Part shown: positions 28,333 to 40,456 of the stretch, piece after piece
How positions within the stretch are numbered: the first letter of the stretch is position 1
Layout: each line of letters starts with the position of its first letter
Virus record (IMG/VR): IMGVR_UViG_3300020704_000002
Location: 1 to 41,405 of that record
Direction: 5' to 3' (one strand)
Origin: a virus
DNA: 41,405 nucleotides
Position numbers and translations under genes: made by a program
Notes under the pieces: generated by a model
The model's input: the letters and a program-made list of their open reading frames with translations, nothing else
What the model was told of the DNA's origin: nothing
Databases searched by the model: none

Positions 28333-28365
28333 TTTTAAATCTCTCTTAATTAATTAGTATGACTT

Positions 28366-28394
28366 ATTATAACTAAATCAGAATAAAGAATCAA
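28366..28394 (-). promoter_or_regulatory. early sigma70-type promoter
   Basis: Minus CAAGTGC-TTGATT, 17 bp, TATAAT, leader with TTAAGAGAGATTT. Confidence 0.85.
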
Positions 28395-28418
28395 GCACTT
28401 GATCACTTTTGATTTTCT

Positions 28419-28664
28419 TCAAACCTTGCAAGCTTCGTCATATTCGCGGCAACGGTCTTCAAAATCCTTTTCCCATGCTTCGAATTCTTTTTGACGCTGT
28501 TCTTGCATCGCAGGAGTTAATTCGTATGCGATCCAATCTAGGATCGATTCGCGGTCGTTTGACGCGATGTGGCGTGGACGGATTCCGTTTACATCCTTGT
28601 ACCAGTCGCTGAAGACAGCGTGTAGGTCTTCTGTGTTCATTGCTTGATAAGTTTCTATTGACAT
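28419..28664 (-). CDS. conserved small phage protein
   Basis: 81 residues. MSIETYQAMNTEDLHAVFSD, WYKDVNGIRPRHIA and ESILDWIAYEL match a small phage protein family. It is clearly richer in G and C than its neighbours, which suggests recent transfer. Confidence 0.65.
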   Translation of the reverse strand: MSIETYQAMNTEDLHAVFSDWYKDVNGIRPRHIASNDRESILDWIAYELTPAMQEQRQKEFEAWEKDFEDRCREYDEACKV

Positions 28665-28690
28665 GTTCTGCTCCTAGTTAGTATGTGTAT

Positions 28691-28719
28691 ATTATAGAGT
28701 CTTTATTTGCCTTTGTCAA
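28691..28719 (-). promoter_or_regulatory. consensus sigma70 promoter
   Basis: Minus GGGG-TTGACA, 17 bp, TATAAT, leader with TAGGAGCAGAAC. It lacks the upstream AAAGTGC and uses a standard Shine-Dalgarno instead of GAGAGAG, so it differs from the early set. Confidence 0.85.
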
Positions 28720-28858
28720 CCCCTAAATTCCTTTTTTTTAATTCTTCAAACTTTGCAATCGATTTCGCTGCACGGTTGTTTTCCCATATTCCTAATAAAC
28801 AGAAAACGATAGTAATTGCAGGACCGATAATAAGAACAAACAAGAAAAAATAAGTCAT
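28703..28858 (-). CDS. 51-residue membrane protein
   Basis: MTYFFLFVLIIGPAITIVFC anchor, then a basic cytosolic helix ending GVDKGK. AAGGAG fits the second of two adjacent ATGs. Its 3' end contains the promoter at 28691. Confidence 0.6.
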   Translation of the reverse strand: MTYFFLFVLIIGPAITIVFCLLGIWENNRAAKSIAKFEELKKRNLGVDKGK

Positions 28859-28868
28859 CATTTACTCC

Positions 28869-29030
28869 TTAATAAGGTCCTTGTTTGCGAGTGATTGAAA
28901 TAATGTAGCAGTTAAGATCATATACTTTTAATGCCTTTGCTTCTGCATCTGCGAAGTTCTCTGCTTCTAATATGAAAGTTATGTAATCTGGGTAATCATC
29001 ACAATCTAAAATTACAGTGTATTCATTCAT
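28869..29030 (-). CDS. 53-residue hypothetical protein
   Basis: MNEYTVILDCDDYPDYITFI and LEAENFADAEAKALKVYDL, a small alpha-beta fold like other short phage proteins. GAGAGAAA ribosome binding site behind the promoter at 29062. Confidence 0.6.
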   Translation of the reverse strand: MNEYTVILDCDDYPDYITFILEAENFADAEAKALKVYDLNCYIISITRKQGPY

Positions 29031-29061
29031 CACATTTCTCTCTTTTCATTTAGTATGACTT

Positions 29062-29090
29062 ATTATAATAAATCTAATGGAAAGTGTCAA
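29062..29090 (-). promoter_or_regulatory. early sigma70-type promoter
   Basis: Minus AAAAAGTGC-TTGACA, 17 bp, TATAAT. The upstream gene ends inside it (AAA AGT GCT TGA). Confidence 0.85.
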
Positions 29091-29278
29091 GCACTTTTTA
29101 ATTGTTCTAGTATCTCAGGAATTCTGTTAAGAGCATATTCTCGTTTGCTGATTATTGACTTTTGTTCTTGGTCTGAGCGTTTACCAGTTTGACTATAAAG
29201 CAAATGACACACACTTAATTCAAAGTTAAGGGATCGTTTCAACTCTAACATCTCTTTATGCAATTCTCGTTTGTTCAT
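29087..29278 (-). CDS. hypothetical protein
   Basis: 63 residues from the ATG at 29278, chosen over a longer frame because the preceding bases appear to code for another protein. MNKRELHKEMLELKRSLNFE helix; the last residues KSA are encoded by the promoter motif. Confidence 0.55.
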   Translation of the reverse strand: MNKRELHKEMLELKRSLNFELSVCHLLYSQTGKRSDQEQKSIISKREYALNRIPEILEQLKSA

Positions 29279-29279
29279 T

Positions 29280-29468
29280 TTAAATATGATCCCATAATCT
29301 TGAATACTTTCGTTCATTAATAATTTCAAAATTTTTTAGATTTCCATCATTATCTAATAATACGTTAACTCCGTAATAAACCCTCATAAACTGTTCATAA
29401 CTACCAACGTCATCAAGAAACTTTGATTACCATTCCTTCCAAGTATTAAATACAATTTGTTCGTTCAT
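29280..29468 (-). pseudogene. small gene with an in-frame TAA at codon 14
   Basis: MNEQIVFNTWKEW, TAA (29429-29427), then SKFLDDVGSYEQFMRVYYGV and NEIINERKYSRLWDHI-type sequence to 29280. The frame, the overlap with the upstream stop and the position before the next start all fit one 62-codon gene interrupted by a nonsense codon. Confidence 0.6.
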
Positions 29469-29469
29469 G

Positions 29470-29667
29470 TTATTCTCCATCCTTATCAAAACATCTGCAT
29501 TGAAAATCAATATCACCGATAGGAGTTCCGTTGTCTTCATAAGATTCTGGCTTAGAATAAAATTCTATTACATTCACATCAAAATCAACTTGCTCAAGTG
29601 ATATCTCAACATCATACTTGCCTAGTAATGCTTTTAATTCTTCTTGAAATTGGTCTTGTCTAGTCAT
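29470..29667 (-). CDS. hypothetical protein, paralogue of the 32448 gene
   Basis: 65 residues. MTRQDQFQEELKALLGKYDV and DIDFQCRCFDKDGE correspond to MTRQEQFKEELKILLEKYDV and GIDFICNYFDYAGE in the gene at 32448. Unknown function. First gene behind the promoter at 29702. Confidence 0.65.
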   Translation of the reverse strand: MTRQDQFQEELKALLGKYDVEISLEQVDFDVNVIEFYSKPESYEDNGTPIGDIDFQCRCFDKDGE

Positions 29668-29701
29668 TTCAAATCTCTCTCTTTATTAATTAGTATGACT
29701 T

Positions 29702-29730
29702 ATTATAATAAATCTAACGAAAGATGTCAA
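29702..29730 (-). promoter_or_regulatory. early sigma70-type promoter
   Basis: Minus AAAAGTGC-TTGACA, 17 bp, TATAAT, leader AAAGAGAGAGATTTGAA. Confidence 0.9.
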
Positions 29731-29736
29731 GCACTT

Positions 29737-29910
29737 TTAATCTATTCCAAAAGCAATTTCAGCAAATTTGATATACTTATCTTGAATATCAGCAATACTT
29801 TGCCATGCAGATTCACACCATTCAATATCCCAACCTTATTCGGTATGTTCATATTCAAACATTTTATAAGCGACTTCTCTTTTTTTGTGTTCATTAATAT
29901 TTTTAGTCAT
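29737..29910 (-). pseudogene. paralogue of the 33811 gene with an in-frame TAA
   Basis: Reads MTKNINEHKKREVAYKMFEY, EHTE, TAA (29838-29836), then GWDIEWCESAWQSIADIQDK and YIKFAEIAFGID. The intact paralogue at 33811 reads HEHTDLGWDIEWCESAWKNI, with a leucine where this copy has the stop. Probably inactivated, unless read through. Confidence 0.75.
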
Positions 29911-29922
29911 TTTCATCTCTCT

Positions 29923-30102
29923 TTACGCTGTTAAGACATCATACGGAACTGAAGATAAATCGACATTAACTTCGACAGCACCTTCGCCTTCAAGGAAAAG
30001 ATACCATCCTTCCGGATGAACTTCATCTTCACCAGCAAACATTATTCCACCAGTGTGGTAAGAAACTGAACAGCCTTTTAAATCTTCTAATTTTATCAAC
30101 AT
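29923..30102 (-). CDS. 59-residue hypothetical protein
   Basis: MLIKLEDLKGCSVSYHTGGI and EVHPEGWYLFLEGEGAVEVN; small beta-rich protein with higher GC than neighbours. GGAGAGAA ribosome binding site. Confidence 0.6.
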   Translation of the reverse strand: MLIKLEDLKGCSVSYHTGGIMFAGEDEVHPEGWYLFLEGEGAVEVNVDLSSVPYDVLTA

Positions 30103-30127
30103 TTTATTCTCTCCGGAATGGTATATT

Positions 30128-30373
30128 TTAATACAAAAAAACTTTATTTGAGATTAATTTATCTCGATACGATACAATAACATGTTCTTTTATGTTATCC
30201 GATTCGGGGACAACAAGATACTGCATTTTCTCTAATCCATATTCCCAGAAGACAGTATCGAGCAACATGTTCCAAGTTTTTTCTGAGATACCACCAAATT
30301 TGCTTTTTCGTAATTTTATTTCTTTGCCTGTCATCATCTTGTCTAAGATAACCTTTGCCGTTGAATATTTCAT
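30128..30373 (-). CDS. hypothetical protein
   Basis: 81 residues, MKYSTAKVILDKMMTGKEIK opening, then a WNMLLDTVFWEYGLEKMQYL segment. The start at 30373 follows AAGAGAGATGAAA behind the promoter at 30405. Confidence 0.6.
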   Translation of the reverse strand: MKYSTAKVILDKMMTGKEIKLRKSKFGGISEKTWNMLLDTVFWEYGLEKMQYLVVPESDNIKEHVIVSYRDKLISNKVFLY

Positions 30374-30404
30374 TTTCATCTCTCTTTATTAATTAGTATG
30401 ATTT

Positions 30405-30433
30405 ATTATATCTAATCTAATGGAAAGAATCAA
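30405..30433 (-). promoter_or_regulatory. early sigma70-type promoter with doubled upstream motif
   Basis: Minus AAAGTACAGCAAAGTGC-TTGATT, 17 bp, TATAAT. The AAAGT motif occurs twice, 10 bp apart. Confidence 0.85.
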
Positions 30434-30448
30434 GCACTTTGCTGTACT

Positions 30449-30667
30449 TTAAAACCTTGGTTTCCCATCAAGAAGTTCTTTTATTTCTTTTGATACAATT
30501 TCGTATCCATAACCAACGTTCTGATCGAATTCACTTCCTTGATACCTTGATTGTATTCTAAGATCAAGTTCGGTAAGATATTGTTCTATCAATTTCACTT
30601 TAGTATAATCATTCATCTTAATACCCATCCCCATATACTTGTTATAAACCTCATAAACTTTAATCAT
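30449..30667 (-). CDS. hypothetical protein
   Basis: 72 residues, MIKVYEVYNKYMGMGIKMND opening, helical. An internal ATG at 30616 is an alternative start; the outer ATG is favoured by the AAGAGAGATAA leader. Confidence 0.55.
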   Translation of the reverse strand: MIKVYEVYNKYMGMGIKMNDYTKVKLIEQYLTELDLRIQSRYQGSEFDQNVGYGYEIVSKEIKELLDGKPRF

Positions 30668-30699
30668 TGCTTATCTCTCTTAATTTCAAAGTATGATTA

Positions 30700-30728
30700 A
30701 TTATACCTTAACGAATAGAAAGAATCAA
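30700..30728 (-). promoter_or_regulatory. early sigma70-type promoter
   Basis: Minus CAAAGTGC-TTGATT, 17 bp, TATAAT. Confidence 0.85.
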
Positions 30729-30767
30729 GCACTTTGTTGAAAGTTTTTTGAAAAGAAAGGACGCGGG

Positions 30768-30795
30768 AAAAAAAGACCGGATGTTTATTCCGGTC
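30768..30795 (-). terminator. rho-independent terminator
   Basis: Minus GACCGGA-ATAAACA-TCCGGTC followed by seven T. It only works in minus orientation and closes the transcript that comes from the ATPase gene and the RNA region below. Confidence 0.9.
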
Positions 30796-31223
30796 AGATA
30801 TCACATCAGGAGAGATGTTAGGATTGAACGATAAACTAGTGGAGAGAGGTCACTGTTAGTTGTTTATCATTCAGTAAAGGAATAGGTTATTTGTTAAATT
30901 TCCCGTCTGCAAGAGGAAATTATTGCTTCTACAACCAAACACCCTAAAAAGCCTTACATGGCTTCCGGAAAAAAAACGGAGGTAAATCATCAACAAGGAG
31001 AGAGTCTTTTTAATGATTTACCAGAGGGGATGTAAACATCCCAATATGAGTCAAATTAGACTCAAAACGAGACCACTGCACCTCGTGAGAGAGAACAAGA
31101 TACAATGGCTCAGGTTTTGCAAGAAAACATCTGGAGAGAGTCAGGTGTCCTCTTGCTATAAAAACTGGAGCAAATATCATAAGGAGAGAGACTTAATCAA
31201 TAGCTCAACAGTTAATTATTCAG
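30796..31223 (-). ncRNA. multi-hairpin RNA with CUCUCUC loops (putative anti-RBS regulator)
   Basis: 428 nt without a credible gene between the ATPase stop and the terminator. In minus orientation it folds into hairpins showing pyrimidine loops: 31168-31206 (loop UCUCUCUC), 31120-31155 (15-bp stem, one mismatch, loop ACUCUCUC), 31077-31104 (9 bp, UUCUCUCUCA), 30981-31022 (10 bp, loop with ACUCUCUC), 30825-30873 (12 bp outer stem, ACCUCUCUC), 30803-30818 (5 bp, UCUCCU). G.U pairs hold several stems only on this strand. The loops are complementary to the GAGAGAG ribosome binding sites of the early genes. Confidence 0.65.
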
Positions 31224-32183
31224 TTACTTTAGCATAACAGTTTTTGCTAATTTTTTCCAATCATTTCTATTCATGGTATAAAGAACAGCCAATTTTTCAA
31301 CAGCCCTTAGAGATAATTCTTTCATTTTATCAGAATTTTCCTCAATAAAGTTAATCAATATTTGATCTTCTTCAGGAGAAATGCCTTTATCCCTAAGCAT
31401 ACCTTTATTAACTGTTTGTTTAATTTTCGTAATAAATTCCCGTTTGGTTTTAATTTTCATGTCCAACACTAGAGAACGTGATTCAAGAGCCGAAAGGTGA
31501 GGAGCATATTTTGTGTTACCATTCGCCATTTCAGAGAAATTAAGGTTAGTCAAGAAAATAATATTGCCTTCATATTGAAAGTATCTAGGAATTTGTTCAC
31601 CAAAGTCATCAAAGAATTCTTTCTCAGAACCCCAACCAATTGTCCTAGATGGTTTTAATTCTAATGCAGCTTTTAATAAATTCAAAGCAATTTCATCACC
31701 AAAGATGGCATCAGAATCATCAATAACAATTGTTTGACCAAGTAATTTATTTTCCCATAAGAGACGGAAAAGACCAGTGGCTTTAAGAAAACCTCTATGA
31801 AAGATATAACCAAACTCCGAACCATTATTGATTTGGTTTAAGATTTTATTTACTTCATACGACTTACCTAATCCTGGAGCACCAGAACAAATAAGACTGT
31901 TCACTTTATTGGCTGCCACTGCTTCTACAAGTGTATCAAGGGTTGTATAGGTATCTTCAATCCTTTGATTAAGGTCTGCATCTGATTCTTCAATCATAGG
32001 AGAATCAATTTCCAGATCAACAGAAAATTTAAACACACCACGTTTCAGGGCATTTTGTTGATTACAGATGTGATTAGGATAGGTTGTTTGGTATTTAGAG
32101 ACAACATCATTAATTTGTCGTCTAGTGATATAACCAAGTTCAGCAACTTCAGGAAACATTTCAACAGCATTCAATTCAAACAT
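31224..32183 (-). CDS. AAA+ family ATPase
   Basis: 319 residues. N-terminal helix-turn-like part (YITRRQINDVVSKYQTTYPN), Walker A SGAPGLGKS (about residues 100-108), Walker B QTIVIDDSDAIF, sensor-like IIFLTNLNFSE, and an arginine-bearing HLSALESRSLVLD segment. Similar single-domain ATPases occur in phages without a fixed role. It follows a strong early promoter and its transcript leads into the multi-hairpin RNA. Confidence 0.8.
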   Translation of the reverse strand: MFELNAVEMFPEVAELGYITRRQINDVVSKYQTTYPNHICNQQNALKRGVFKFSVDLEIDSPMIEESDADLNQRIEDTYTTLDTLVEAVAANKVNSLICSGAPGLGKSYEVNKILNQINNGSEFGYIFHRGFLKATGLFRLLWENKLLGQTIVIDDSDAIFGDEIALNLLKAALELKPSRTIGWGSEKEFFDDFGEQIPRYFQYEGNIIFLTNLNFSEMANGNTKYAPHLSALESRSLVLDMKIKTKREFITKIKQTVNKGMLRDKGISPEEDQILINFIEENSDKMKELSLRAVEKLAVLYTMNRNDWKKLAKTVMLK

Positions 32184-32214
32184 AAATTATTTCTCTCTCA
32201 ATTTAGTATATCTT

Positions 32215-32243
32215 ATTATAATATTATTGATTTAAAGTGTCAA
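32215..32243 (-). promoter_or_regulatory. early sigma70-type promoter
   Basis: Minus AAAGTGCAACAAAGTGC-TTGACA, 17 bp, TATAAT, GAGAGAGAAAT leader. Drives the ATPase and probably the RNA after it. AAAGTGC is doubled 10 bp apart. Confidence 0.9.
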
Positions 32244-32258
32244 GCACTTTGTTGCACT

Positions 32259-32432
32259 TTATGCGAGTTCTTCTACTGAAAGAATATCAACATTACCTAA
32301 TCTGAATAATGCAATCTCTTTTGCTTCTTCAGCAGTAAATGCCTTAACATAATCATATTTTACTTCAATTTCTTTTTTAAAGAAGTAATCAAATTGTTCG
32401 TATTCAACTTCGTAATTTTTAATTTGATTCAT
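32259..32432 (-). CDS. 57-residue hypothetical protein
   Basis: MNQIKNYEVEYEQFDYFFKK and KAFTAEEAKEIALFRLGNVD, a small alpha-beta protein like many phage early proteins. GGGAGCAAAAAG ribosome binding site; second gene of the unit started at 32679. Confidence 0.6.
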   Translation of the reverse strand: MNQIKNYEVEYEQFDYFFKKEIEVKYDYVKAFTAEEAKEIALFRLGNVDILSVEELA

Positions 32433-32447
32433 TTTTCTTTTTGCTCC

Positions 32448-32645
32448 CTATTCACCGGCATAATCAAAATAATTACAAATAAAATCAATACCAGTGCCTT
32501 CAACCGGAACGTAGATATCACTCCATTCTGGAGCAGAGTAAAATTGTACTCCACTAACACCTTTCTCGCACGGAGTTGAAATTGCAACATCATACTTTTC
32601 TAATAAGATTTTTAATTCTTCTTTAAATTGTTCTTGTCTAGTCAT
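32448..32645 (-). CDS. hypothetical protein, paralogue of the 29470 gene
   Basis: 65 residues from the ATG at 32645, behind TAGAGAGAGAATTAAA. MTRQEQFKEELKILLEKYDV shared with the paralogue. Unknown function. Confidence 0.65.
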   Translation of the reverse strand: MTRQEQFKEELKILLEKYDVAISTPCEKGVSGVQFYSAPEWSDIYVPVEGTGIDFICNYFDYAGE

Positions 32646-32678
32646 TTTAATTCTCTCTCTATCAATTAAGTATAAGTT

Positions 32679-32707
32679 ATTATAATCTAAGTGCTTAGAA
32701 GAATCAA
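32679..32707 (-). promoter_or_regulatory. early sigma70-type promoter
   Basis: Minus CAACAAAGTGC-TTGATT, 17 bp, TATAAT. It follows the tRNA-Thr directly. Confidence 0.85.
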
Positions 32708-32728
32708 GCACTTTGTTGCTCTTTTATT

Positions 32729-32804
32729 TGGAGCCACTGAGAGAACTCGAATCCCCAACCTTCTGATTACAAATCAGACGCACTACCAATTGTGCTACAG
32801 TGGC
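32729..32804 (-). tRNA. tRNA-Thr (anticodon UGU)
   Basis: 76 nt including an encoded CCA. Acceptor GCCACTG/CAGTGGC, anticodon arm TCTGA-TTTGTAA-TCAGA, T-loop TTCGAGT. All arms pair well, so it looks functional. It reads ACA and other ACN codons that are common in AT-rich genes. Confidence 0.9.
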
Positions 32805-32813
32805 AAATTAAAT

Positions 32814-32965
32814 AAGTTATTGTTCTCAATCGGAGTCGAACCGATGTTTCTCAACTAGAGTGTCCTAGCCCAAACTAGACGACAGAAATAAATCTCCGAT
32901 GGGATTTGAACCCATGTTTCTCAATTAGAGCGTCCTAAGCCTCTAGACGATAAGAGCAATAACTT
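32814..32965 (-). ncRNA. double tRNA-like RNA with exchanged acceptor stems
   Basis: Two tRNA-like bodies in one 152-nt unit. Outer stem: AAGTTATTGCTCTTA pairs with TGAGAACAATAACTT (15 bp, one mismatch). Each body has a D-arm of Glu type (GTCTAG..AGGAC), a mini-arm CTC-TARTT-GAG instead of a 5-bp anticodon arm, and a perfect T-arm (ATGGG-TTCAAAT-CCCAT; ATCGG-TTCGACT-CCGAT). The bodies are joined by hairpin CGGAGA-TTTA-TTTCTG. Neither body can close its own acceptor stem; each strand pairs with the other's. Confidence 0.7.
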
Positions 32966-32974
32966 ATTTAAATT

Positions 32975-33003
32975 ATTATACTTTAATCAGATGTATTTGT
33001 TAA
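32975..33003 (-). promoter_or_regulatory. early sigma70-type promoter
   Basis: Minus AAAAGTGG-TTAACA, 17 bp, TATAAT. It reads straight into the double tRNA-like RNA and tRNA-Thr. Confidence 0.8.
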
Positions 33004-33094
33004 CCACTTTTTTACATCTTTTATAAACTTTTTTCGATTCGAACACTTTCGGTTTGTTATATTTCCAAGCATGTTTAGCGGTTAAGTTATTCAT
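32987..33094 (-). CDS. 35-residue basic phage protein
   Basis: MNNLTAKHAWKYNKPKVFES then KKVYKRCKKVVNKYI. The AKHA.K.N...VF..KK pattern matches a very small basic protein found in many large phages. AAAGAGAGAA ribosome binding site. The 3' end contains the promoter at 32975. Confidence 0.65.
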   Translation of the reverse strand: MNNLTAKHAWKYNKPKVFESKKVYKRCKKVVNKYI

Positions 33095-33125
33095 TTCAGT
33101 TCTCTCTTTGGGTATTGCTGTTTAA

Positions 33126-33287
33126 TTATACAACTTCTCTTTCTATATAATAGAATTCAGACTCATACCTCCACTGTGTAAAAGTATATGCGGTCTGCTC
33201 ATCTTCAAAAGTACCTGCGATTTTTGGTTCTTCCATGTAAGAATCATCATAATACATTACATTATAAACATATTTCTCTTTATTCAT
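33126..33287 (-). CDS. 53-residue acidic hypothetical protein
   Basis: MNKEKYVYNVMYYDDSYMEE, rich in tyrosine and acidic residues. GATAGAGAGAATT ribosome binding site behind the promoter at 33323. Confidence 0.55.
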   Translation of the reverse strand: MNKEKYVYNVMYYDDSYMEEPKIAGTFEDEQTAYTFTQWRYESEFYYIEREVV

Positions 33288-33322
33288 ATTATATAATTCT
33301 CTCTATCAATTAAGTATAAGTT

Positions 33323-33351
33323 ATTATATATAAGATAGAGAGAAATATCAA
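33323..33351 (-). promoter_or_regulatory. early sigma70-type promoter
   Basis: Minus CAAAGTGC-TTGATA, 17 bp, TATAAT. Its spacer (TTTCTCTCTATC) is an inverted copy of the ribosome binding site (GATAGAGAGAA); the same arrangement recurs at 34916. Confidence 0.85.
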
Positions 33352-33378
33352 GCACTTTGTTTAAAAAAATTAGAGAGC

Positions 33379-33499
33379 AAATTTGAGGACTCTTACCCCA
33401 TAAATAGATTTATGTAGGACAGCTAGGTTAATCCGTAGCCAAGTTGGGAAATGCTAGTAACATTTTCCTAACTACATCGATTTATACAAAATCAAATTT
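33379..33499 (-). ncRNA. structured RNA element 1, next to tRNA-Gly
   Basis: AAATTT ends pair (33379-33384 with 33494-33499), directly followed inside by hairpin GGGG-TAAGAGT-CCTC (7-base loop, like a T-arm next to an acceptor stem). Further stems: CATAAA/TTTATG and GTTAGGAAAATG/CATTTCCCAAC. It abuts the CCA of tRNA-Gly. No gene is seen. It shares its 17-base end with element 2. Confidence 0.5.
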
Positions 33500-33575
33500 T
33501 GGAGCGGACGATCGGGTATGATCCGACAACATTCTGATTGGAAATCAGACACTCTACCAATTGAGTTACGTCCGC
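33500..33575 (-). tRNA. tRNA-Gly (anticodon UCC)
   Basis: 76 nt with encoded CCA. Acceptor GCGGACG/CGTCCGC, anticodon arm TCTGA-TTTCCAA-TCAGA, T-stem GTCGG/CCGAT. The T-loop is ATCATAC instead of the usual TTCRANY; the tmRNA T-loop has a similar ATCATA core. Otherwise intact. Confidence 0.85.
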
Positions 33576-33593
33576 ATAATTTTGGTATCTCAG

Positions 33594-33731
33594 TGAGGAC
33601 TCTTACCCCATCTTTTAATCCAAGCCTAGACACCAACTTGGAGATGCTTTCTAATGGTTGATCAGACCAACATTTGAAGTTCCTACAGGATTCGAACCCA
33701 TAATACCACAGTCAAAGTGTAGTATGTTAAT
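33594..33731 (-). ncRNA. structured RNA element 2 with a half tRNA-Gln
   Basis: Right after the promoter at 33732 lies an anticodon-like arm (CTACA-CTTTGAC-TGTGG, anticodon UUG), a T-arm (ATGGG-TTCGAAT-CCTGT) and AGGAACT-TCA, i.e. the 3' half of a tRNA-Gln with no 5' half in front. Then stems AATGTTG/CAACCATT and CATCTCCAAG/CTTGG..AGATG, and the hairpin GGGG-TAAGAGT-CCTC shared with element 1. Either a decayed tRNA or a permuted or split one; unresolved. Confidence 0.5.
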
Positions 33732-33760
33732 ATTATACAGTCGGTTTTACCTTTTGTCAA
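33732..33760 (-). promoter_or_regulatory. consensus sigma70 promoter
   Basis: Minus AGGG-TTGACA, 17 bp, TATAAT, no upstream AAAGTGC. It starts the tRNA-Gly unit. Confidence 0.85.
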
Positions 33761-33801
33761 CCCTTTTTAAATTTCTTTTTATCTGATACCTGTAATACCA
33801 T

Positions 33802-33824
33802 ATTGTTCTTCTAAGAAGAACAAT
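33802..33824. repeat. perfect 10-bp inverted repeat at a gene end
   Basis: ATTGTTCTTC-TAA-GAAGAACAAT spans the stop codon of the 33811 gene. It may act as a weak terminator or protect the mRNA end; no T run follows. Confidence 0.6.
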
Positions 33825-34071
33825 GTTCTTCTGCCCATTCAACTCCTTCCCAGAACATTTTTTGCTGTTCTATTTTCAAGGTATCCATTTTTGCATCCAT
33901 TACCTCATAACTCATTTGCACAGGTAATGCAATTTCAGCAAATTTGATATACTTATTTTGTATATCATGAATATTTTTCCAGGCAGATTCACACCATTCG
34001 ATATCCCAACCTAAATCAGTATGTTCATGTAAAAACATTTGATAAGCGACTTGTTCGATTCTTTTTGACAT
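33811..34071 (-). CDS. hypothetical protein, intact paralogue of the 29737 gene
   Basis: 86 residues. MSKRIEQVAYQMFLHEHTDL, GWDIEWCESAWKNIHDIQNK and KFAEIALPVQM; C-terminal FWEGVEWAEEHCSS. Function unknown; compare the stop-containing copy. Confidence 0.65.
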   Translation of the reverse strand: MSKRIEQVAYQMFLHEHTDLGWDIEWCESAWKNIHDIQNKYIKFAEIALPVQMSYEVMDAKMDTLKIEQQKMFWEGVEWAEEHCSS

Positions 34072-34100
34072 TTCTTTTCTCGTTTTGTTAGTATGTGTAT

Positions 34101-34129
34101 ATTATACTATCAGTATTACCAAATATCAA
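34101..34129 (-). promoter_or_regulatory. sigma70-type promoter
   Basis: Minus ATGG-TTGATA, 17 bp, TATAAT. Leader resembles the 28691 promoter (ATACACATACTAAC) rather than the GAGAGAG set. Confidence 0.8.
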
Positions 34130-34377
34130 CCATTGATTAAACTATTTTCAACAAGTTTAACATCTTTATGCATCACGTAATATGAATCTGGAAATTCACT
34201 AAACGAAATCGCATAAACTTTTGACACACTTTTTTCTTCATTTATCAACACATCATAATTGTCAACTCTAACATTGGCAATGGTATCGATAATTGGTTCA
34301 GAACCACCAAAATCATATTCAACTTCTAAACCTTTAACACTGTTAATATCTTGTTTCATCATTTCTAATACAGTCAT
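34126..34377 (-). CDS. hypothetical protein
   Basis: 83 residues, MTVLEMMKQDINSVKGLEVE opening and beta-rich remainder. GAGAGAGAATTAAA ribosome binding site. The -35 of the next promoter overlaps its stop. Confidence 0.6.
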   Translation of the reverse strand: MTVLEMMKQDINSVKGLEVEYDFGGSEPIIDTIANVRVDNYDVLINEEKSVSKVYAISFSEFPDSYYVMHKDVKLVENSLING

Positions 34378-34409
34378 TTTAATTCTCTCTCAATTTCAAA
34401 GTATAAGTT

Positions 34410-34438
34410 ATTATACCTTAACGATTAGAAAGAATCAA
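34410..34438 (-). promoter_or_regulatory. early sigma70-type promoter
   Basis: Minus CAACAAAGTGC-TTGATT, 17 bp, TATAAT; follows the tRNA-Thr-like gene as 32679 follows tRNA-Thr. Confidence 0.85.
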
Positions 34439-34459
34439 GCACTTTGTTGCAGTTTTATT

Positions 34460-34534
34460 TGGAGCCACTCCGCAGAATCAAACTGCGATCTAGAGATTAC
34501 AAGTCAATTGTATTATCATTATACATAGAGTGGC
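34460..34534 (-). tRNA. degenerate tRNA-Thr-like gene
   Basis: Acceptor GCCACTC/GAGTGGC plus T-CCA, D-arm and T-arm (CGCAG-TTTGATT-CTGCG) pair well and CTTGTAA would be the anticodon loop (UGU), but the anticodon stem ATTGA/TCTCT has two mismatches. The downstream flank is nearly the same as at tRNA-Thr 32729, so it is a diverged duplicate, probably not a normal tRNA. Confidence 0.65.
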
Positions 34535-34537
34535 AAA

Positions 34538-34698
34538 TTAAATTATAAAGACTGTAGGAATTGAACCTAACATAGAGACAGACCAAACCACAACCAGTGG
34601 TTATTTTTAAGTAGGAGAATTGAACTCCTTCGCAGGTCCTAGGGCTCCGCTTTAACCAAAATAATCCTAAAAATAAAATATCAATCTTTATAATTTAA
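34538..34698 (-). ncRNA. second compound tRNA-like RNA
   Basis: Outer stem TTTAAATTATAAAGATTG-type strand (34698-34682) pairs with its partner (34554-34538) over 17 bp with one G.U. A T-arm TAGG-TTCAATT-CCTA abuts it directly. Inside: hairpin AACCAC-TGGTT-GTGGTT, a 9-bp stem TTATTTTTA/TAAAAATAA, and a second T-arm AGGAG-TTCAATT-CTCCT. Same placement, right before a tRNA-Thr-like gene, as the element at 32814. Confidence 0.6.
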
Positions 34699-34699
34699 A

Positions 34700-34766
34700 T
34701 TGCCCTCTTCGACTATGTATCCATAATCCTATCGACTTTAGGCTTTGCCGTTTTCCTAATTTTGGA
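34700..34766 (-). ncRNA. hairpin element upstream of the compound RNA
   Basis: GATTATG-GATA-CATAGTC (7 bp, tetraloop) inside GCCT/GGGC, preceded by GGC-AAA-GCC. A compact structured stretch without a gene, on the same transcript as the compound RNA. Identity unknown. Confidence 0.4.
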
Positions 34767-34768
34767 TG

Positions 34769-34882
34769 TTAATTTCCTATTAAAGAAACTAATATAACAG
34801 TCGCAATAAATAACTGCCCGATTATATTCATTGGTAAAGTTACAACAAATTCTTTTGGCTGTCTTACTTTATAATCTTTCAT
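34769..34882 (-). CDS. 37-residue membrane protein
   Basis: MKDYKVRQPKEFVVTLPMNI then a hydrophobic C-terminal helix ending LVSLIGN. GATAGAGAGAGAAAT ribosome binding site behind the promoter at 34916. Confidence 0.6.
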   Translation of the reverse strand: MKDYKVRQPKEFVVTLPMNIIGQLFIATVILVSLIGN

Positions 34883-34915
34883 TTTATTTCTCTCTCTATC
34901 AATTAAGTATAAGTT

Positions 34916-34944
34916 ATTATATATAAGATAGAGAGAAATATCAA
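34916..34944 (-). promoter_or_regulatory. early sigma70-type promoter
   Basis: Minus AGAAGTGC-TTGATA, 17 bp, TATAAT; same spacer as 33323. Confidence 0.85.
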
Positions 34945-34972
34945 GCACTTCTGTATTTAATATAAAGATAAT

Positions 34973-35443
34973 TTATGCTGCTTCTTCCTCTTCGTAAAGT
35001 GCCATATTTTCAGAGATGGCAAAACAATCATCAATTTCTTTGGGGATATTTTCTTCCACCCAATTAGAATCACCTTGGATACAGTATTCATCGTCCTCAC
35101 CATCCTTGAATGCCCCACAGAAGCCAATACCGCCTTCGTAATAAAAAGCTGTAACAGTAAACCCAAGTTCCTCAAGTTTTTGGTATCCTTCTATTGGAGG
35201 GCTCCAAGCTGAATCAAAATACACCCCGACTGAAGTATCTGTTTGTTCATAAATATATGCTTCTACAATGTCCCATTTGGTTCCCCAATTTTCCACTACG
35301 AAGCCATATTCCGATTCACAATCAGCTGGGATAGGTATAAATTCACGAAGGAAACTATCGTTCTCTAAGGCTGCCACAGCTCTTTGGATCATAATTGGAT
35401 CATCATGTTCTAAACGTAAATCATTTGAGCACCAATTAGGCAT
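34973..35443 (-). CDS. MPNWCSN-family protein (DUF1281/Api92-like, ferredoxin-like fold)
   Basis: 156 residues. MPNWCSNDLRLEHDD, FLREFIPIPADCE, ENWGTKWDIVEAYI and FDSAWSPPIEGYQKL are the family signature, found on many phages and plasmids. The AWSPP turn and the C-terminal acidic tail are intact. Function unknown. AAGGAGAATAAG ribosome binding site. Confidence 0.85.
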   Translation of the reverse strand: MPNWCSNDLRLEHDDPIMIQRAVAALENDSFLREFIPIPADCESEYGFVVENWGTKWDIVEAYIYEQTDTSVGVYFDSAWSPPIEGYQKLEELGFTVTAFYYEGGIGFCGAFKDGEDDEYCIQGDSNWVEENIPKEIDDCFAISENMALYEEEEAA

Positions 35444-35444
35444 C

Positions 35445-35555
35445 TTATTCTCCTTTCAATTTAGATTCAACAAAGTCAACCACATCAACAACTGTTAAGG
35501 TAAATAACCAGAACAAACAACCTAAAACTACGAAGTATTGGATAAATTCTAACAT
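35445..35555 (-). CDS. 36-residue membrane protein
   Basis: MLEFIQYFVVLGCLFWLFTL, one membrane helix with an acidic-basic tail. Its last codons hold the ribosome binding site of the MPNWCSN gene, so the two are coupled. Confidence 0.6.
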   Translation of the reverse strand: MLEFIQYFVVLGCLFWLFTLTVVDVVDFVESKLKGE

Positions 35556-35584
35556 TTTATTTCTCTCTCAATTAAGTATAAGTT

Positions 35585-35613
35585 ATTATAATCTAAGTGC
35601 TTAGAAGAATCAA
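35585..35613 (-). promoter_or_regulatory. early sigma70-type promoter
   Basis: Minus TAAAGTGC-TTGATT, 17 bp, TATAAT. Spacer is identical to that at 32679. Confidence 0.85.
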
Positions 35614-35618
35614 GCACT

Positions 35619-35819
35619 TTAAGCAAATATTTCTTTACTAAGAATTTCTTCTTCTACAGTTTTGTGACAAGCATTTAACATCAACAATGCTACTTGGGTC
35701 GCAATACATCTTTCTTGTCCAGAAAGTGTCTTAGTATATTCAAGAACTTCATCGATGCTTTGGGTTGAAAATAAATCAAATTTTGGAATTGGATTTGGAA
35801 CAGGTCTATTATCAATCAT
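35619..35819 (-). CDS. hypothetical protein
   Basis: 66 residues; MIDNRPVPNPIPKFDLFSTQ then a helical part LSGQERCIATQVALLMLNAC. Behind promoter 35848 with a long GAGAGAGAG ribosome binding site. Confidence 0.6.
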   Translation of the reverse strand: MIDNRPVPNPIPKFDLFSTQSIDEVLEYTKTLSGQERCIATQVALLMLNACHKTVEEEILSKEIFA

Positions 35820-35847
35820 TTTTTTCTCTCTCTATTAAGTATAAGTT

Positions 35848-35876
35848 ATTATAACCGATACAGATTTAAAGATCAA
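35848..35876 (-). promoter_or_regulatory. early sigma70-type promoter
   Basis: Minus GAAAGTGC-TTGATC, 17 bp, TATAAT. The upstream gene's stop (TGA) lies in its -35. Confidence 0.85.
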
Positions 35877-36115
35877 GCACTTTCAATAATATCTAATTGG
35901 ATATTAACACCATCATATCTACCACCGATACCTAGGATCGTTTCAGTACGATTTTTGTATTCTAAACCAATCAATAAATTGTTTACATTTATGTTAAATT
36001 TACCATTCTGGCCTGTACCCTCGCGGATTTGTTTGACAGTGGTGTAAAATGATCCACCGATATCAGCCAATACGATTTTCACTTTAGTGCTAGGTTTAAA
36101 TTTAAATTCTTTCAT
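35873..36115 (-). CDS. hypothetical protein
   Basis: 80 residues, beta-rich (VKIVLADIGGSFYTTVKQIR), C-terminal ESA encoded within the promoter motif. Second gene of the 36322 unit. Confidence 0.55.
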   Translation of the reverse strand: MKEFKFKPSTKVKIVLADIGGSFYTTVKQIREGTGQNGKFNINVNNLLIGLEYKNRTETILGIGGRYDGVNIQLDIIESA

Positions 36116-36126
36116 TACGATTCTCT

Positions 36127-36288
36127 CTAAAGGCTTGCAGGATTAAATTCGACATCAGCTAAAACTACAGTTACATCATAACATTTTTTAGATTTGAACA
36201 ATTGAGCAGCAATTATTTGGGCTTCATATGAAGCAGCTTCTACAGTTGTTTTTCTTCCTTTATAAAAGGCGATATAAGTTCTTCTCAT
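36127..36288 (-). CDS. 53-residue phage protein
   Basis: MRRTYIAFYKGRKTTVEAAS and YEAQIIAAQLFKSKKCYDVT then VVLADVEF match a small phage protein of the YVAFYKGK..YEAQ..A type. Function unknown. GAGAGAGAAATAAA ribosome binding site. Confidence 0.65.
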   Translation of the reverse strand: MRRTYIAFYKGRKTTVEAASYEAQIIAAQLFKSKKCYDVTVVLADVEFNPASL

Positions 36289-36321
36289 TTTATTTCTCTC
36301 TCTATCAATTAAGTATAAGTT

Positions 36322-36350
36322 ATTATAACCGATATAGATTTAAAAATCAA
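36322..36350 (-). promoter_or_regulatory. early sigma70-type promoter
   Basis: Minus AAAGTGC-TTGATT, 17 bp, TATAAT. Confidence 0.85.
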
Positions 36351-36362
36351 GCACTTTAAGAA

Positions 36363-36572
36363 TTATTTTGTTGAATAATGAACAGGTCTTTCGTATGATC
36401 CTGTTGATGATCTATACACACTTACATATCTAAAGTCTTCAGTAATAAAGCTCTCGGTTTGATCACGGTCTATGTTCAACCCTAATGGCCAAACCTCAAC
36501 CAATCCTTCTGATTCTAATGCATCATTAAGGGTCGGGAACCAATTATTTTTTACTTCATATCTTCTTTTCAT
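36363..36572 (-). CDS. hypothetical protein
   Basis: 69 residues from the ATG at 36572 with GGAGAGGAAAG upstream. MKRRYEVKNNWFPTLNDALE; ends SSTGSYERPVHYSTK. Unknown. Confidence 0.55.
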   Translation of the reverse strand: MKRRYEVKNNWFPTLNDALESEGLVEVWPLGLNIDRDQTESFITEDFRYVSVYRSSTGSYERPVHYSTK

Positions 36573-36600
36573 CTTTCCTCTCCAATTCAAATTATAAGTT

Positions 36601-36629
36601 ATTATAAATTAATAGGAAAATAATGTCAA
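36601..36629 (-). promoter_or_regulatory. early sigma70-type promoter with 10-bp repeats upstream
   Basis: Minus GAAGTGC-TTGACA, 17 bp, TATAAT, preceded by three more helically phased copies of GAAGTGC. Confidence 0.85.
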
Positions 36630-36630
36630 G

Positions 36631-36667
36631 CACTTCGTAGCACTTCGTAGCACTTCGTAGCACTTCT
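36631..36667 (-). repeat. 10-bp tandem repeat of the promoter upstream motif
   Basis: CTACGAAGTG repeated three times plus a partial copy on the minus strand, one per DNA turn, ending in the promoter. It suggests that the AAGTGC motif is a protein contact site. Confidence 0.8.
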
Positions 36668-37008
36668 TAAATCTTATACAGAGCAGAATACCAACTTGTG
36701 CATTGCTCGGTATACAAACCCACAGCTTCTAATGCTTCGCTCATCTTATTAATAAGTTCATAATTATAATTATCATAACTGAAATAATCACCTACAGATC
36801 CACCATCATGACAGATGATTAATTCTGAATGAGTACCATAATCTTCTTTTCGTTCTCTCCATTGTTCAGGGGAATAAAAGGTTGTACATCCACCTGTATC
36901 GATTATTTTTTCTTCCATTACTTCCATAATGGTTTTATATGCAAGTTTCCCAACATCGGAAAGGTGTTCTGGCATTTGAGTATCTTCGGGTGAATAATTA
37001 TTAAACAT
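36667..37008 (-). CDS. conserved phage protein (HLSDVG..TGGC..FYSP family)
   Basis: 113 residues from the ATG at 37008. PEHLSDVGKLAYKTIMEVME, TGGCTTFYSPEQWRER, LIICHDGGSVG and CTSWYSALYK match a phage protein family of unknown function. AAGAGAGAAAAT ribosome binding site. Confidence 0.7.
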   Translation of the reverse strand: MFNNYSPEDTQMPEHLSDVGKLAYKTIMEVMEEKIIDTGGCTTFYSPEQWRERKEDYGTHSELIICHDGGSVGDYFSYDNYNYELINKMSEALEAVGLYTEQCTSWYSALYKI

Positions 37009-37041
37009 TTTATTTTCTCTCTTTTCAATTAAGTATGAGTT

Positions 37042-37070
37042 ATTATAACCTTGTTGCTGGGAAATGTCAA
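37042..37070 (-). promoter_or_regulatory. early sigma70-type promoter, variant
   Basis: Minus AAATGC-TTGACA, 17 bp, TATAAT. Upstream GGGAAATGC replaces AAAGTGC. Confidence 0.8.
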
Positions 37071-37092
37071 GCATTTCCCAGCAAGGGCGTGG

Positions 37093-37746
37093 CTATGCAG
37101 CCTCTAACATTAATCGGAATACTTTTTTCATTTTACGTCCATGTTGAGGATAAGCAATAACGTCTATATCCTTCGAATAACACGCTCTACAGCTCGAACA
37201 TTTTCCCTCACGGTCATAGGCTTCGCAAACAAAAACACCTGCTGGTGCACTCTCAGCATCCGGAATGATTACCGATCCATGAATCCCTGGAGTAAATTCG
37301 CCAGTAATTGAATCAGAAGAGAATCTTACCTTAACATTAGGTAAGGCATCCATTTCGGCAATTACTTTTGCGAATTTTGCAAATTTACCCATCCTTGTTG
37401 GCAACCAATATTGTGTGTTTGGAGTTGCTTTCATTACACTTAATATCTTTTTAGCAAGCTTTAAAGAATACATATCACCACTATCAAAAAACCTGAACCA
37501 CTTTGCATTTTTCATCTCAGCAGTCATATCAGAGACCCATTCAGGACGTCTCCAATCTTCTTTATTCTCAGCTCTTGGTTCTTTTACGTTTGGGAATGCA
37601 TAGTTACCAGTGGTGGCATAACAACCTGAACAAGCTGGAACCAACTCACCGTCCTCGTTTAATGATCCAGGGCAAGTTTCAAGAGCTTGTAAGCTCCAAC
37701 TTTTCACGTTATCAAGTTTAGAAGTTTTAGAAATTCTTACAGTCAT
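37093..37746 (-). CDS. GP88-family phage protein
   Basis: 217 residues. CPGSLNEDGELVPACSGCYA, NYAFPNVKEPRAENKEDWRR, WFRFFDSGDMYS, WLPTRMGKFAKF and CSSCRACYS correspond to the phage gene product 88 family (PF17338 as I recall). The conserved cysteines suggest a metal or iron-sulfur site; biochemical function unknown. Full length. Single-gene early unit. Confidence 0.85.
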   Translation of the reverse strand: MTVRISKTSKLDNVKSWSLQALETCPGSLNEDGELVPACSGCYATTGNYAFPNVKEPRAENKEDWRRPEWVSDMTAEMKNAKWFRFFDSGDMYSLKLAKKILSVMKATPNTQYWLPTRMGKFAKFAKVIAEMDALPNVKVRFSSDSITGEFTPGIHGSVIIPDAESAPAGVFVCEAYDREGKCSSCRACYSKDIDVIAYPQHGRKMKKVFRLMLEAA

Positions 37747-37778
37747 TTTAATTCTCTCTCAATTAATTAGTATAAGAT

Positions 37779-37807
37779 ATTATAACATATTAGGTTTCAA
37801 AGGTCAA
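37779..37807 (-). promoter_or_regulatory. early sigma70-type promoter
   Basis: Minus ACGAAGTGC-TTGACC, 17 bp, TATAAT. Identical spacer to 38263. Confidence 0.85.
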
Positions 37808-37829
37808 GCACTTCGTTGCCAAGTATATC

Positions 37830-38000
37830 CTATAAAATTACTTTTTCAGACAACATGATAAATTGTTTGAGCCCAAAATCGTCAATAATCCAACCACAAA
37901 ACGGGTCTGGGGAAGAATAATGATCTTGTGGGTCAATCACCTCATACCATTTTTCTGGGGTGATTGACAGGGAGATTGAAGTTGCGGTTTTAACTTTCAT
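37830..38000 (-). CDS. 56-residue hypothetical protein
   Basis: MKVKTATSISLSITPEKWYE and DPFCGWIIDDFGLKQFIMLS. TAATG overlap with the upstream gene. Confidence 0.6.
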   Translation of the reverse strand: MKVKTATSISLSITPEKWYEVIDPQDHYSSPDPFCGWIIDDFGLKQFIMLSEKVIL

Positions 38001-38230
38001 TAGGTGAAGATGTTGTATTGAGCTTCAAGGTTTGCGAACTCAGCTTCAAGGATGACCATTTGTTGCTTAGATAAGTTTAGGCGATCTATAAAATAAGCCA
38101 GTGAGGTGGTCGCTGCTTCTAAAGTATAAAGATAATTTATATCAGATCCATAAGTGTCGTACTTAGATCTTTCTTGAGCCACTTTAACAGTTAGATCAAC
38201 AAGGGCGAAGACGGAATCAGTTTTAATCAT
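38000..38230 (-). CDS. helical hypothetical protein
   Basis: 76 residues, MIKTDSVFALVDLTVKVAQE opening and two long helices. Behind promoter 38263. Confidence 0.55.
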   Translation of the reverse strand: MIKTDSVFALVDLTVKVAQERSKYDTYGSDINYLYTLEAATTSLAYFIDRLNLSKQQMVILEAEFANLEAQYNIFT

Positions 38231-38262
38231 TTTAATTCTCTCTCAATTAATTAGTATAAGAT

Positions 38263-38291
38263 ATTATAACATATTAGGTTTCAAAGGTCAA
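38263..38291 (-). promoter_or_regulatory. early sigma70-type promoter
   Basis: Minus GAAGTGC-TTGACC, 17 bp, TATAAT. Confidence 0.85.
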
Positions 38292-38502
38292 GCACTTCTA
38301 ACGGTCGCTTCGAAAAATAATTCACTTAATTTTTGGATAAGTTCTTCTTTACTTAAATCAATTAAATAACTATTGTTTTTTCCTCTTAAATTAAGGTAAG
38401 TTTTATCTTTTTTCATTGAACTTTCAACTACAAAATGTTCATGTTCACTTAGGAAAAAAGTGAACGACCCACCGCCATCACGTGGTAAAGTAATTTTTTC
38501 AT
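38288..38502 (-). pseudogene. early gene with a one-base frameshift after the start
   Basis: The ATG at 38502 sits behind a perfect GAGAGAGAAATAAA leader but gives only MKKLLYHVMAVGRSLFS. One base off, the frame reads KITLPRDGGGSFTFFLSEHE through KDKTYLNLRGKNNSYLIDLS to ATVRSA, ending in the promoter motif. Seven instead of six A after ATG would restore a 71-residue protein. Confidence 0.7.
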
Positions 38503-38533
38503 TTTATTTCTCTCTCTTTATTAAGTATAAATT

Positions 38534-38562
38534 ATTATACTAAAGACCCATCCTTAGGTCAA
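38534..38562 (-). promoter_or_regulatory. early sigma70-type promoter
   Basis: Minus AAAAGTGC-TTGACC, 17 bp, TATAAT. Confidence 0.85.
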
Positions 38563-38573
38563 GCACTTTTAGA

Positions 38574-38789
38574 TTAAATTTCTATTAGAAGTTTTCTTAT
38601 CGCAGAAATTTCTTGGCTATCCCATTCTTTAGAATATTTTTTCTCAGGAAAATGTATAAGGATTAAATACTGAATATTTTCTAAAGTATATTTTAAGGTA
38701 TCGATGTTAATTTTACCATCATTATAGTCATCTCCAGCGAAAAGGACTTGAACCAACAAAGAATTAAATAAGGCTTGTTTTTTTGACAT
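38574..38789 (-). CDS. hypothetical protein
   Basis: 71 residues, MSKKQALFNSLLVQVLFAGD opening, helical. GGAGAGAAAA ribosome binding site. Confidence 0.55.
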   Translation of the reverse strand: MSKKQALFNSLLVQVLFAGDDYNDGKINIDTLKYTLENIQYLILIHFPEKKYSKEWDSQEISAIRKLLIEI

Positions 38790-38818
38790 TTTTCTCTCCG
38801 ATCAATTAATTATGATTC

Positions 38819-38847
38819 ATTATACCTTAAGGAGAGAGAGAATACAA
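38819..38847 (-). promoter_or_regulatory. early sigma70-type promoter
   Basis: Minus AAAAGTGC-TTGTAT, 17 bp, TATAAT. The spacer holds CTCTCTCTCC, complementary to the GAGAG ribosome binding site. Confidence 0.85.
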
Positions 38848-38857
38848 GCACTTTTTT

Positions 38858-39277
38858 TTATTTTCCGATGTTTATTGACCGAACAAGTTCCATTCTGTAT
38901 TCATTATTCGGTCCTTCAAAATTTACAATCACATCATCAATTTCAGCACCAATCCGAATGTATTCAATATTCAGGTCAGGATAATTAAATGTTAAATTAT
39001 AAAACAAATCGTCAAAGAAACTTACAGCTGGGAAAGCCACATCACCAGGATACCATTTTTCCCGCGTCGCCTGAAATAACAATTCATAATAACCATTTTC
39101 AGCAACATGAAACAATGTTTTACCAGTTAGATTAAAAGAATTTTGTTCAAGATCCATTACCTTTAATTGTACTTCATCAGGAAGTTCGGCGAATTTATCT
39201 TCATATTCATAACCAAATTCTTCCATTTGGACAGCACCACCGTAAATCCTTACAGCCACGTCAGATAAATAAGCCAT
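38858..39277 (-). CDS. conserved early phage protein (YLSDVA.RIYG family)
   Basis: 139 residues. MAYLSDVAVRIYGGAVQMEE opening and C-terminal YIRIGAEIDDVIVNFEG resemble a phage early protein family of unknown function. Second gene of the 39505 unit. Confidence 0.6.
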   Translation of the reverse strand: MAYLSDVAVRIYGGAVQMEEFGYEYEDKFAELPDEVQLKVMDLEQNSFNLTGKTLFHVAENGYYELLFQATREKWYPGDVAFPAVSFFDDLFYNLTFNYPDLNIEYIRIGAEIDDVIVNFEGPNNEYRMELVRSINIGK

Positions 39278-39279
39278 AA

Positions 39280-39474
39280 TTAAACTCCTGCAAAGGTATT
39301 AGAGATAGAAAAGCGAGGAGCATCACCACCAACGGGTTTACCTCTAGATTCCTTAGCACGACATGTTGATTTAATTTTAATTTGTTTAGCAGGAACTTCT
39401 TTAATTGAATTGCCATTTAGAACGAATTCTAGAGTGTCGTTTAGAAGTTTTTGTCTCAATTCTGTTTTAGTCAT
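39280..39474 (-). CDS. basic small phage protein
   Basis: 64 residues. MTKTELRQKLLNDTLEFVLN then PAKQIKIKSTCRAKESRGKP and a terminal FAGV. The DTLxFVLxG opening followed by a basic tail is common in T4-like early regions. Confidence 0.6.
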   Translation of the reverse strand: MTKTELRQKLLNDTLEFVLNGNSIKEVPAKQIKIKSTCRAKESRGKPVGGDAPRFSISNTFAGV

Positions 39475-39504
39475 TTTTTCTCTCTCAATTAATTAGTATA
39501 AGTT

Positions 39505-39533
39505 ATTATAACCGATGTAGTTTTATAATACAA
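39505..39533 (-). promoter_or_regulatory. early sigma70-type promoter
   Basis: Minus AAAGTGC-TTGTAT, 17 bp, TATAAT. This promoter, spacer included, is repeated at 40010, 40424 and 40661. Confidence 0.9.
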
Positions 39534-39541
39534 GCACTTTA

Positions 39542-39979
39542 TTAATATTCTTCGTCTGGATCAAAGTATTCATCATCTTCGTCCTCAGGCTCCCATGCAG
39601 TGTCTATACAAACGTTTCCGAAGTCAAATATACCACTCTCGGCGATTACAGAAAACGGAGCGTAGAAGTCGTGTACGACGCCATCAGTTACATTTTTTTG
39701 ATCTTCCTGAGAAATATCTTTAGTTGCGATTATACCTAATAAACCAGCATCTACACCATAAGTATTGCCTAAATTATCTTGATATTCGCCATCACCATAA
39801 GCTGTCATCGCTAAAAAAAACCTACGACCGTCCGATAAATTAAAAGCACCGTTAATTAAATTATTACCTTTAATTGTTAAATCGCAAACTTCTTTCCACT
39901 CATCATGCATCACATAACTTAGGTCGCCGATATAATATTCGCCAGAATTAAATTCAGCAGAAACTTTTTCATATCTCAT
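39542..39979 (-). CDS. conserved phage protein (YYIGDLSYV..TAYGDG family)
   Basis: 145 residues. SGEYYIGDLSYVMHDEWKEV, DGRRFFLAMTAYGDGEYQDN and YGVDAGLLGII are a well-spread phage pattern; very acidic C-terminus (DEDDEYFDPDEEY), which could mimic DNA. Function unknown. Confidence 0.75.
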   Translation of the reverse strand: MRYEKVSAEFNSGEYYIGDLSYVMHDEWKEVCDLTIKGNNLINGAFNLSDGRRFFLAMTAYGDGEYQDNLGNTYGVDAGLLGIIATKDISQEDQKNVTDGVVHDFYAPFSVIAESGIFDFGNVCIDTAWEPEDEDDEYFDPDEEY

Positions 39980-40009
39980 TTTATTTCTCTCAATTAATTA
40001 GTATAAGTT

Positions 40010-40038
40010 ATTATAACCGATGTAGTTTTATAATACAA
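40010..40038 (-). promoter_or_regulatory. early sigma70-type promoter
   Basis: Minus AAAAGTGC-TTGTAT, 17 bp, TATAAT; same spacer as 39505. Confidence 0.9.
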
Positions 40039-40452: not shown

Positions 40453-40456
40453 GCAC

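Follow-up and report, generated by a model that had tools for sequence, protein, structure and literature searches.

A non-coding region of about 455 nt in a large, uncultured phage is predicted to fold on the minus strand into a row of hairpins with CUCUCUC-type loops, and nearly all early leaders of the same phage carry GAGAGAG or GAGAGA, the complement of these loops. The best explanation of this sequence pattern, which we regard as probable, is that the region encodes a multivalent antisense RNA that would mask the ribosome-binding sites of the early regulon.

The window, i.e., the whole stretch of DNA analyzed, is a virus record of 41,405 bases with 31% G+C, and its genes are located almost throughout on the minus strand. 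T4-like features of the phage include an nrdC.10-type ATPase, a phage tmRNA and several tRNAs. The tmRNA (10667-11038, minus strand) matched the permuted tmRNA models of betaproteobacteria, which may give a clue to the host group. Among the few plus-strand genes was an IS605 OrfB/TnpB-like gene with a Cas12f1-like TNB domain (15417-16601), beside which no guide RNA family was detected. The P-loop ATPase (T4 nrdC.10 type, PHROG 1250; 31224-32183, minus strand), which matches T4-like and giant phages at 30-38% identity and has a leader with GAGAGAGA, lies upstream of the multi-hairpin RNA (30768-31223, minus strand). Approximately 455 bases separate the ATPase stop (31224) from the next early promoter (30734), and we agree with the first-pass annotation that they contain no credible gene. 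A coding reading was considered and rejected: overlapping frames occur on both strands, here and in the second phage described below, and none was gene-like in position or leader.

We found that the minus strand of this region (31223-30768) had a minimum free energy of -143.1 kcal/mol versus -95.0 +/- 5.6 for dinucleotide-shuffled controls (z -8.6). The corresponding values for the plus strand were -128.5 versus -95.7 +/- 6.4 (z -5.2), so the minus strand, on which the hairpins had been proposed, exceeded both its shuffled controls and the opposite strand. Six pyrimidine-loop hairpins were predicted on the minus strand, where at least six had originally been proposed, five with CUCUCUC and one with a degenerate loop, and their stems ranged from 4 to 18 bp. 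Hairpin 1 (31180-31195) has the form UAAG-[UCUCUCUC]-CUUA, and its 17-nt core is also found in the second phage. Hairpins 2 and 3, the two examples cited by the annotation, are both real: the former (31156-31119) has 14 bp with two G.U pairs and loop ACUCUCUC, and the latter (31112-31068), the longest of all, has 18 bp with five G.U pairs and loop UCUCUCUC. They are followed by hairpin 4 (30981-31022; 16 bp, loop ACUCUCUC), hairpin 5 (30838-30854; loop ACCUCUCUC) and hairpin 6 (30803-30818; loop UCUCCU). CUCUCUC is located in 8-9-nt loops with an unpaired probability of 0.82-1.0 at all five sites, and both the 8-nt loop size and the closing pair, mostly G-C, are nearly constant. With the flanks of these sites shuffled, only 3-18% of trials placed CUCUCUC in a hairpin loop. 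Elsewhere on the minus strand of the window CUCUCUC occurs just once, at 38840, where it lies outside any loop, in the spacer TCTCTCTCTCC of an early promoter (38853-38825, minus strand). The region ends in an intrinsic terminator (30768-30795, minus strand), composed of a GACCGG stem (30795-30775) followed by T7, as had been noted. Based on these features, the existence of the RNA and the display of its loops are well supported by sequence.

Going upstream from the RNA, the first strong promoter is that of the ATPase itself, an early promoter with 12 of 12 consensus positions (TTGACA-17-TATAAT; 32215-32243, minus strand). Between this promoter and the RNA, only weak promoter-like sites were observed, all within the ATPase gene, and no clear promoter or processing site specific to the RNA was found upstream of it. 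The RNA is therefore likely to be carried in the 3' portion of the ATPase transcript; the proposal of a phage RNA holds for the folded region but probably not for a free-standing gene. The only strong upstream promoter belongs to the early class, so RNA and targets would be produced in one phase, and the initial suggestion that the RNA appears late in infection is not supported. The region had no Rfam family match at the gathering threshold, and no nucleotide similarity to it was found in annotated phage records.

The proposed targets are 23 promoter-leader cassettes at 28340-40700 (minus strand). The repeated cassette is AAGTGCTTGA-N19-TATAAT-N5-ATACT, followed by a short A+T-rich leader, GAGAGAG or GAGAGA, and ATG; an example of such a leader is AATTGAGAGAGAAATAAAATG. 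These genes are assigned to an early class on the basis of their strong sigma-70-type promoters, and the assignment is thus a presumptive one. The annotation had described the motif in nearly every early leader and, consistent with this, 22 of 23 AAGTGCTTGA-type promoters at 28.4-40.7 kb lead to GAGAGA shortly before ATG, versus 2 of 7 elsewhere in the window. When ORF starts were counted instead, 19 of the 34 starts in the early region were preceded by GAGAGA, compared with 2 of the 68 in the rest of the window. Early-region leaders paired with the UCUCUCUC loop at a mean of -7.3 kcal/mol; the mean was -2.2 for leaders elsewhere and -1.9 when the early leaders were shuffled. A typical early leader paired to the loop at -12.1 and to the anti-Shine-Dalgarno (anti-SD) tail of 16S rRNA at only -5.5, so GAGAGAG is a mediocre SD sequence but a good match to the loop.

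Two additional features of these promoters were observed. Spacers at 34950-34885 and 33357-33295 (minus strand) hold TTTCTCTCTATC, an inverted repeat of the downstream leader GATAGAGAGA; at the DNA level, this repeat extends over both promoter and leader. Besides, a second promoter class, GGTTGA ... TATAATAT..ACATACTA, is found at 28719, 33760 and 34129 (minus strand); its leaders lack GAGAGA, and the genes behind it are possibly a set exempt from the RNA.

Relatives with the same promoter cassette (G002-G004, G007, G008 and G010) had no such RNA on their fragments. Their leaders were mostly of the GGAG type, and GAGAGAG occurred in none of them. Leaders of these relatives paired better with the anti-SD (-5.8 to -7.2 versus -4.9) and worse with the loop (-2.9 to -6.3 versus -7.5 to -8.1), suggesting that leader and loop are matched to each other and not to 16S rRNA. 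Leaders were thus best matched to loops where the RNA was present, an observation that supports but does not prove the relationship, as the relatives are genome fragments in which absence of the RNA is unproven. Together with the concentration of the motif in early leaders, the lack of GAGAGAG in promoter-led leaders of these relatives favors the model of many copies of one antisense loop that had been put forward.

A promoter-cassette scan over 2.9 million viral contigs identified a diverged relative, IMGVR_UViG_3300042400_000624 (G001, 21.8 kb), whose small orthologues were 33-85% identical to those of the window phage. Leaders of the GAGAGA/GAGAGAG type followed 7 of its 12 promoters. A second RNA (G001/L128 3200-3570) was located downstream of a gene with a GAGAGA-type leader, on the same strand as the leaders, and the genes flanking it had no match in the window. 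It is predicted to form four hairpins, three with stems of 4, 17 and 13 bp and another whose stem is long and interrupted, and its loops (ACUCUCUC, CCUCUCUC, UCUCUCUC and ACUCUCUC) have the H-CUCUCUC form seen in the window RNA. All four CUCUCUC sites were in loops and unpaired, the fold was stronger on the sense strand (z -9.2 versus -4.2 for antisense), and 16 G.U pairs were found on the sense strand versus 4 on the antisense strand. The two RNAs share little beyond the loops and innermost closing pairs, and their stems are mostly unrelated. The longest common run is a 17-nt hairpin, TAAGTCTCTCTCCTTAT, which hints at common descent. It appears that the loops remained unchanged while most stems turned over and kept pairing; the conservation of loop motifs that the annotation had called for is thus observed between diverged phages. 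Because the 7-mer shared by loop and target does not differ between the two phages, covariation of loop with target could not be seen, and a near-identical contig (L002), which carries the same RNA, provides no covariation either.

For the two RNAs pooled, 9 of 9 CUCUCUC sites were in hairpin loops, whereas approximately one was expected, and sites with shuffled flanks were looped in only 3-27% of cases. These two RNAs also ranked first when all loop 6-mers at about 120 loci were screened without bias. No further RNA of such design was found at 80 loci identified via a shared small protein, and the scans of 2.9 million viral contigs yielded two separate instances only. IMG/VR pattern scans for paired or triple CUCUCUC gave, among the matches listed, mostly GC-rich or tandem-repeat noise; among these same matches, four CUCUC hairpins remained after a folding filter only in the window phage, its near-identical twin and G001. 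Two complete IMG/VR pattern scans with the folding filter detected only these two phage groups, which suggests that the design is rare, or that other forms differ in motifs or spacings.

How might such an RNA act? Transcription from the early ATPase promoter (32243) would generate it as the 3' part of the mRNA, ending at the terminator at 30775. Each of its five or six hairpins would present an unpaired CUCUCUC-type loop able to form about 7 bp with GAGAGAG or GAGAGA of the phage's own early leaders; as in trans-acting antisense sRNAs, an unpaired seed is complementary to several leaders. Since the GAGAGAG element covers the SD position, pairing would exclude the 30S subunit, and the loop-leader duplex might be exposed to RNase III. 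As the RNA built up alongside the early mRNAs, translation of the whole early regulon would be damped or turned off, and the transcript of the RNA would itself be a target, through its GAGAGAGA leader, resulting in negative feedback. Sequence directly shows that the minus strand is predicted to fold and to display its loops, that the target motif is concentrated in early leaders, and that a diverged phage has a second such RNA. The RNA is presumably made and stable, its loops likely pair with early leaders in trans, and the outcome would, on balance, be repression rather than protection or storage.

A positive role of the same pairing, in which the loops would shield early leaders from an endonuclease or store early mRNAs, rests on the same sequence evidence as repression. 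Nucleases of T4-type phages act at ribosome-binding sites (RegB, PMC3014915), so protection by a paired RNA is conceivable. However, a duplex over the SD would block ribosomes as well, and the leaders mostly lack GGAG, the RegB cut site. A RegB family search of these fragments gave no match, and control genomes likewise gave none. We consider a protective or storage role unlikely.

The main alternative to pairing is that the CUCUCUC hairpins serve as a decoy for a host or phage pyrimidine-binding protein, with the complementarity to leaders being incidental. CsrB/RsmZ RNAs, which titrate proteins, have many hairpins with one repeated loop motif, and their GGA loops bind CsrA/RsmA. Identical loops on varied stems, as observed here, are the layout of such RNAs too, and the near-constancy of loop size (8 nt) and of the closing pair (mostly G-C) would suit protein binding as well. 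However, the sense-strand loops of the phage RNA are CUCUCUC and lack GGA, which occurs only on the weaker-folding plus strand. Moreover, a decoy leaves unexplained why 22 of 23 early leaders carry the complement of the loop at the cost of ribosome pairing, and why this complement is fixed only in RNA-bearing phages. It is therefore also improbable.

The location of the RNA, directly 3' of a coding gene and ahead of a terminator, would also suit common stability hairpins of a 3' UTR, or pyrimidine repeats that arose by chance, neither of them acting in trans. Such readings are very doubtful in view of the 9 of 9 looped sites, the unbiased screen, the recurrence in the diverged phage and the fit to the leaders. 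Finally, a plus-strand RNA acting through GGAGAGAG loops as a CsrA or anti-SD (ribosome) decoy was ruled out as scarcely credible: although GGA is present in 5 of 6 plus-strand motif sites and this strand also folds better than shuffled sequence (z -5.2), the minus strand folds clearly better in both phages, the GAGAGA nucleotides are partly paired on the plus strand, the terminator and strong promoters are on the minus strand, and G.U pairs in the second phage are mostly on the sense strand (16 versus 4).

Multivalent antisense masking has partial parallels among known systems, and CU-rich anti-SD loops are already known in bacterial sRNAs. The LhrC1-5 sRNAs of Listeria also use redundant CU-rich sites on one RNA to pair with target SDs and block translation (PMC4132741), and the five CUCUCUC loops and GAGAGAG leaders of the phage follow the same principle. 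However, LhrC is bacterial, has three sites with the motif CUCCC(...)UUUU, only one of which is in an ordinary stem-loop while the others are single-stranded or in the terminator, and acts on selected cellular mRNAs rather than on an entire phage regulon whose leaders have a matching motif. Similarly, RNAIII of Staphylococcus aureus folds into multiple hairpins, whose C-rich loops dock on the SDs of several mRNAs (PMC2837412), but it is a host quorum-sensing effector that uses UCCC-type loops and extended duplexes and has no sequence relation to the phage RNA. Neither LhrC homology in sequence or structure nor an RNAIII covariance match was detected, as Rfam gave no family for the region at the gathering threshold. 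The phage RNA thus works like LhrC or RNAIII, yet is a member of neither. The c4 RNA of phages P1/P7 is a phage antisense RNA that acts at a ribosome-binding region, with complementarity probably in loops (review PMC12197685); however, it has a single target (ant) and an immunity function, and is neither repeated-loop nor regulon-wide. Besides, ncRNA004 of Pseudomonas phage PA5oct (an lncRNA annotated from RNA-seq; MK797984, L125 1040-1658), located upstream of a related ATPase gene, was folded as a candidate counterpart and rejected, as it had no CUCUC loops. To our knowledge, none of these relatives repeats one loop five or six times and fits it to an entire temporal class. No description of such a multi-loop anti-leader design was found in the literature on phages, and neither there nor elsewhere did we find a described RNA with one loop in five to six copies matched to nearly every promoter-led leader of a temporal class.

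The counterpart in T4 is a protein. Soon after infection, the RegB endoribonuclease disables a group of early phage mRNAs by acting at their SD (PMC3014915), but it is a nuclease that cuts GGAG, whereas here an RNA has loops complementary to GAGAGAG. In a 2010 review of post-transcriptional control in T4, no trans-acting regulatory RNA had been characterized from this phage, and related genomes were suggested as a possible source of candidates (PMC3014915). There is about an even chance that in the window phage a single RNA, rather than a RegB-like protein, is the global post-transcriptional switch of early genes, with leaders rewritten from the ribosome-optimal GGAG to GAGAGAG so as to fit the loops, and with each early mRNA titrated by the multivalent RNA of its own phase, so that negative feedback is built in. 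One RNA could then shut down or tune the whole early gene set at once. If true, the early shut-off for which T4 relies in part on RegB could also be reached with RNA alone. It would further be a clear example of coevolution between leaders and their regulator, and the RNA would offer a natural multivalent scaffold for repression.
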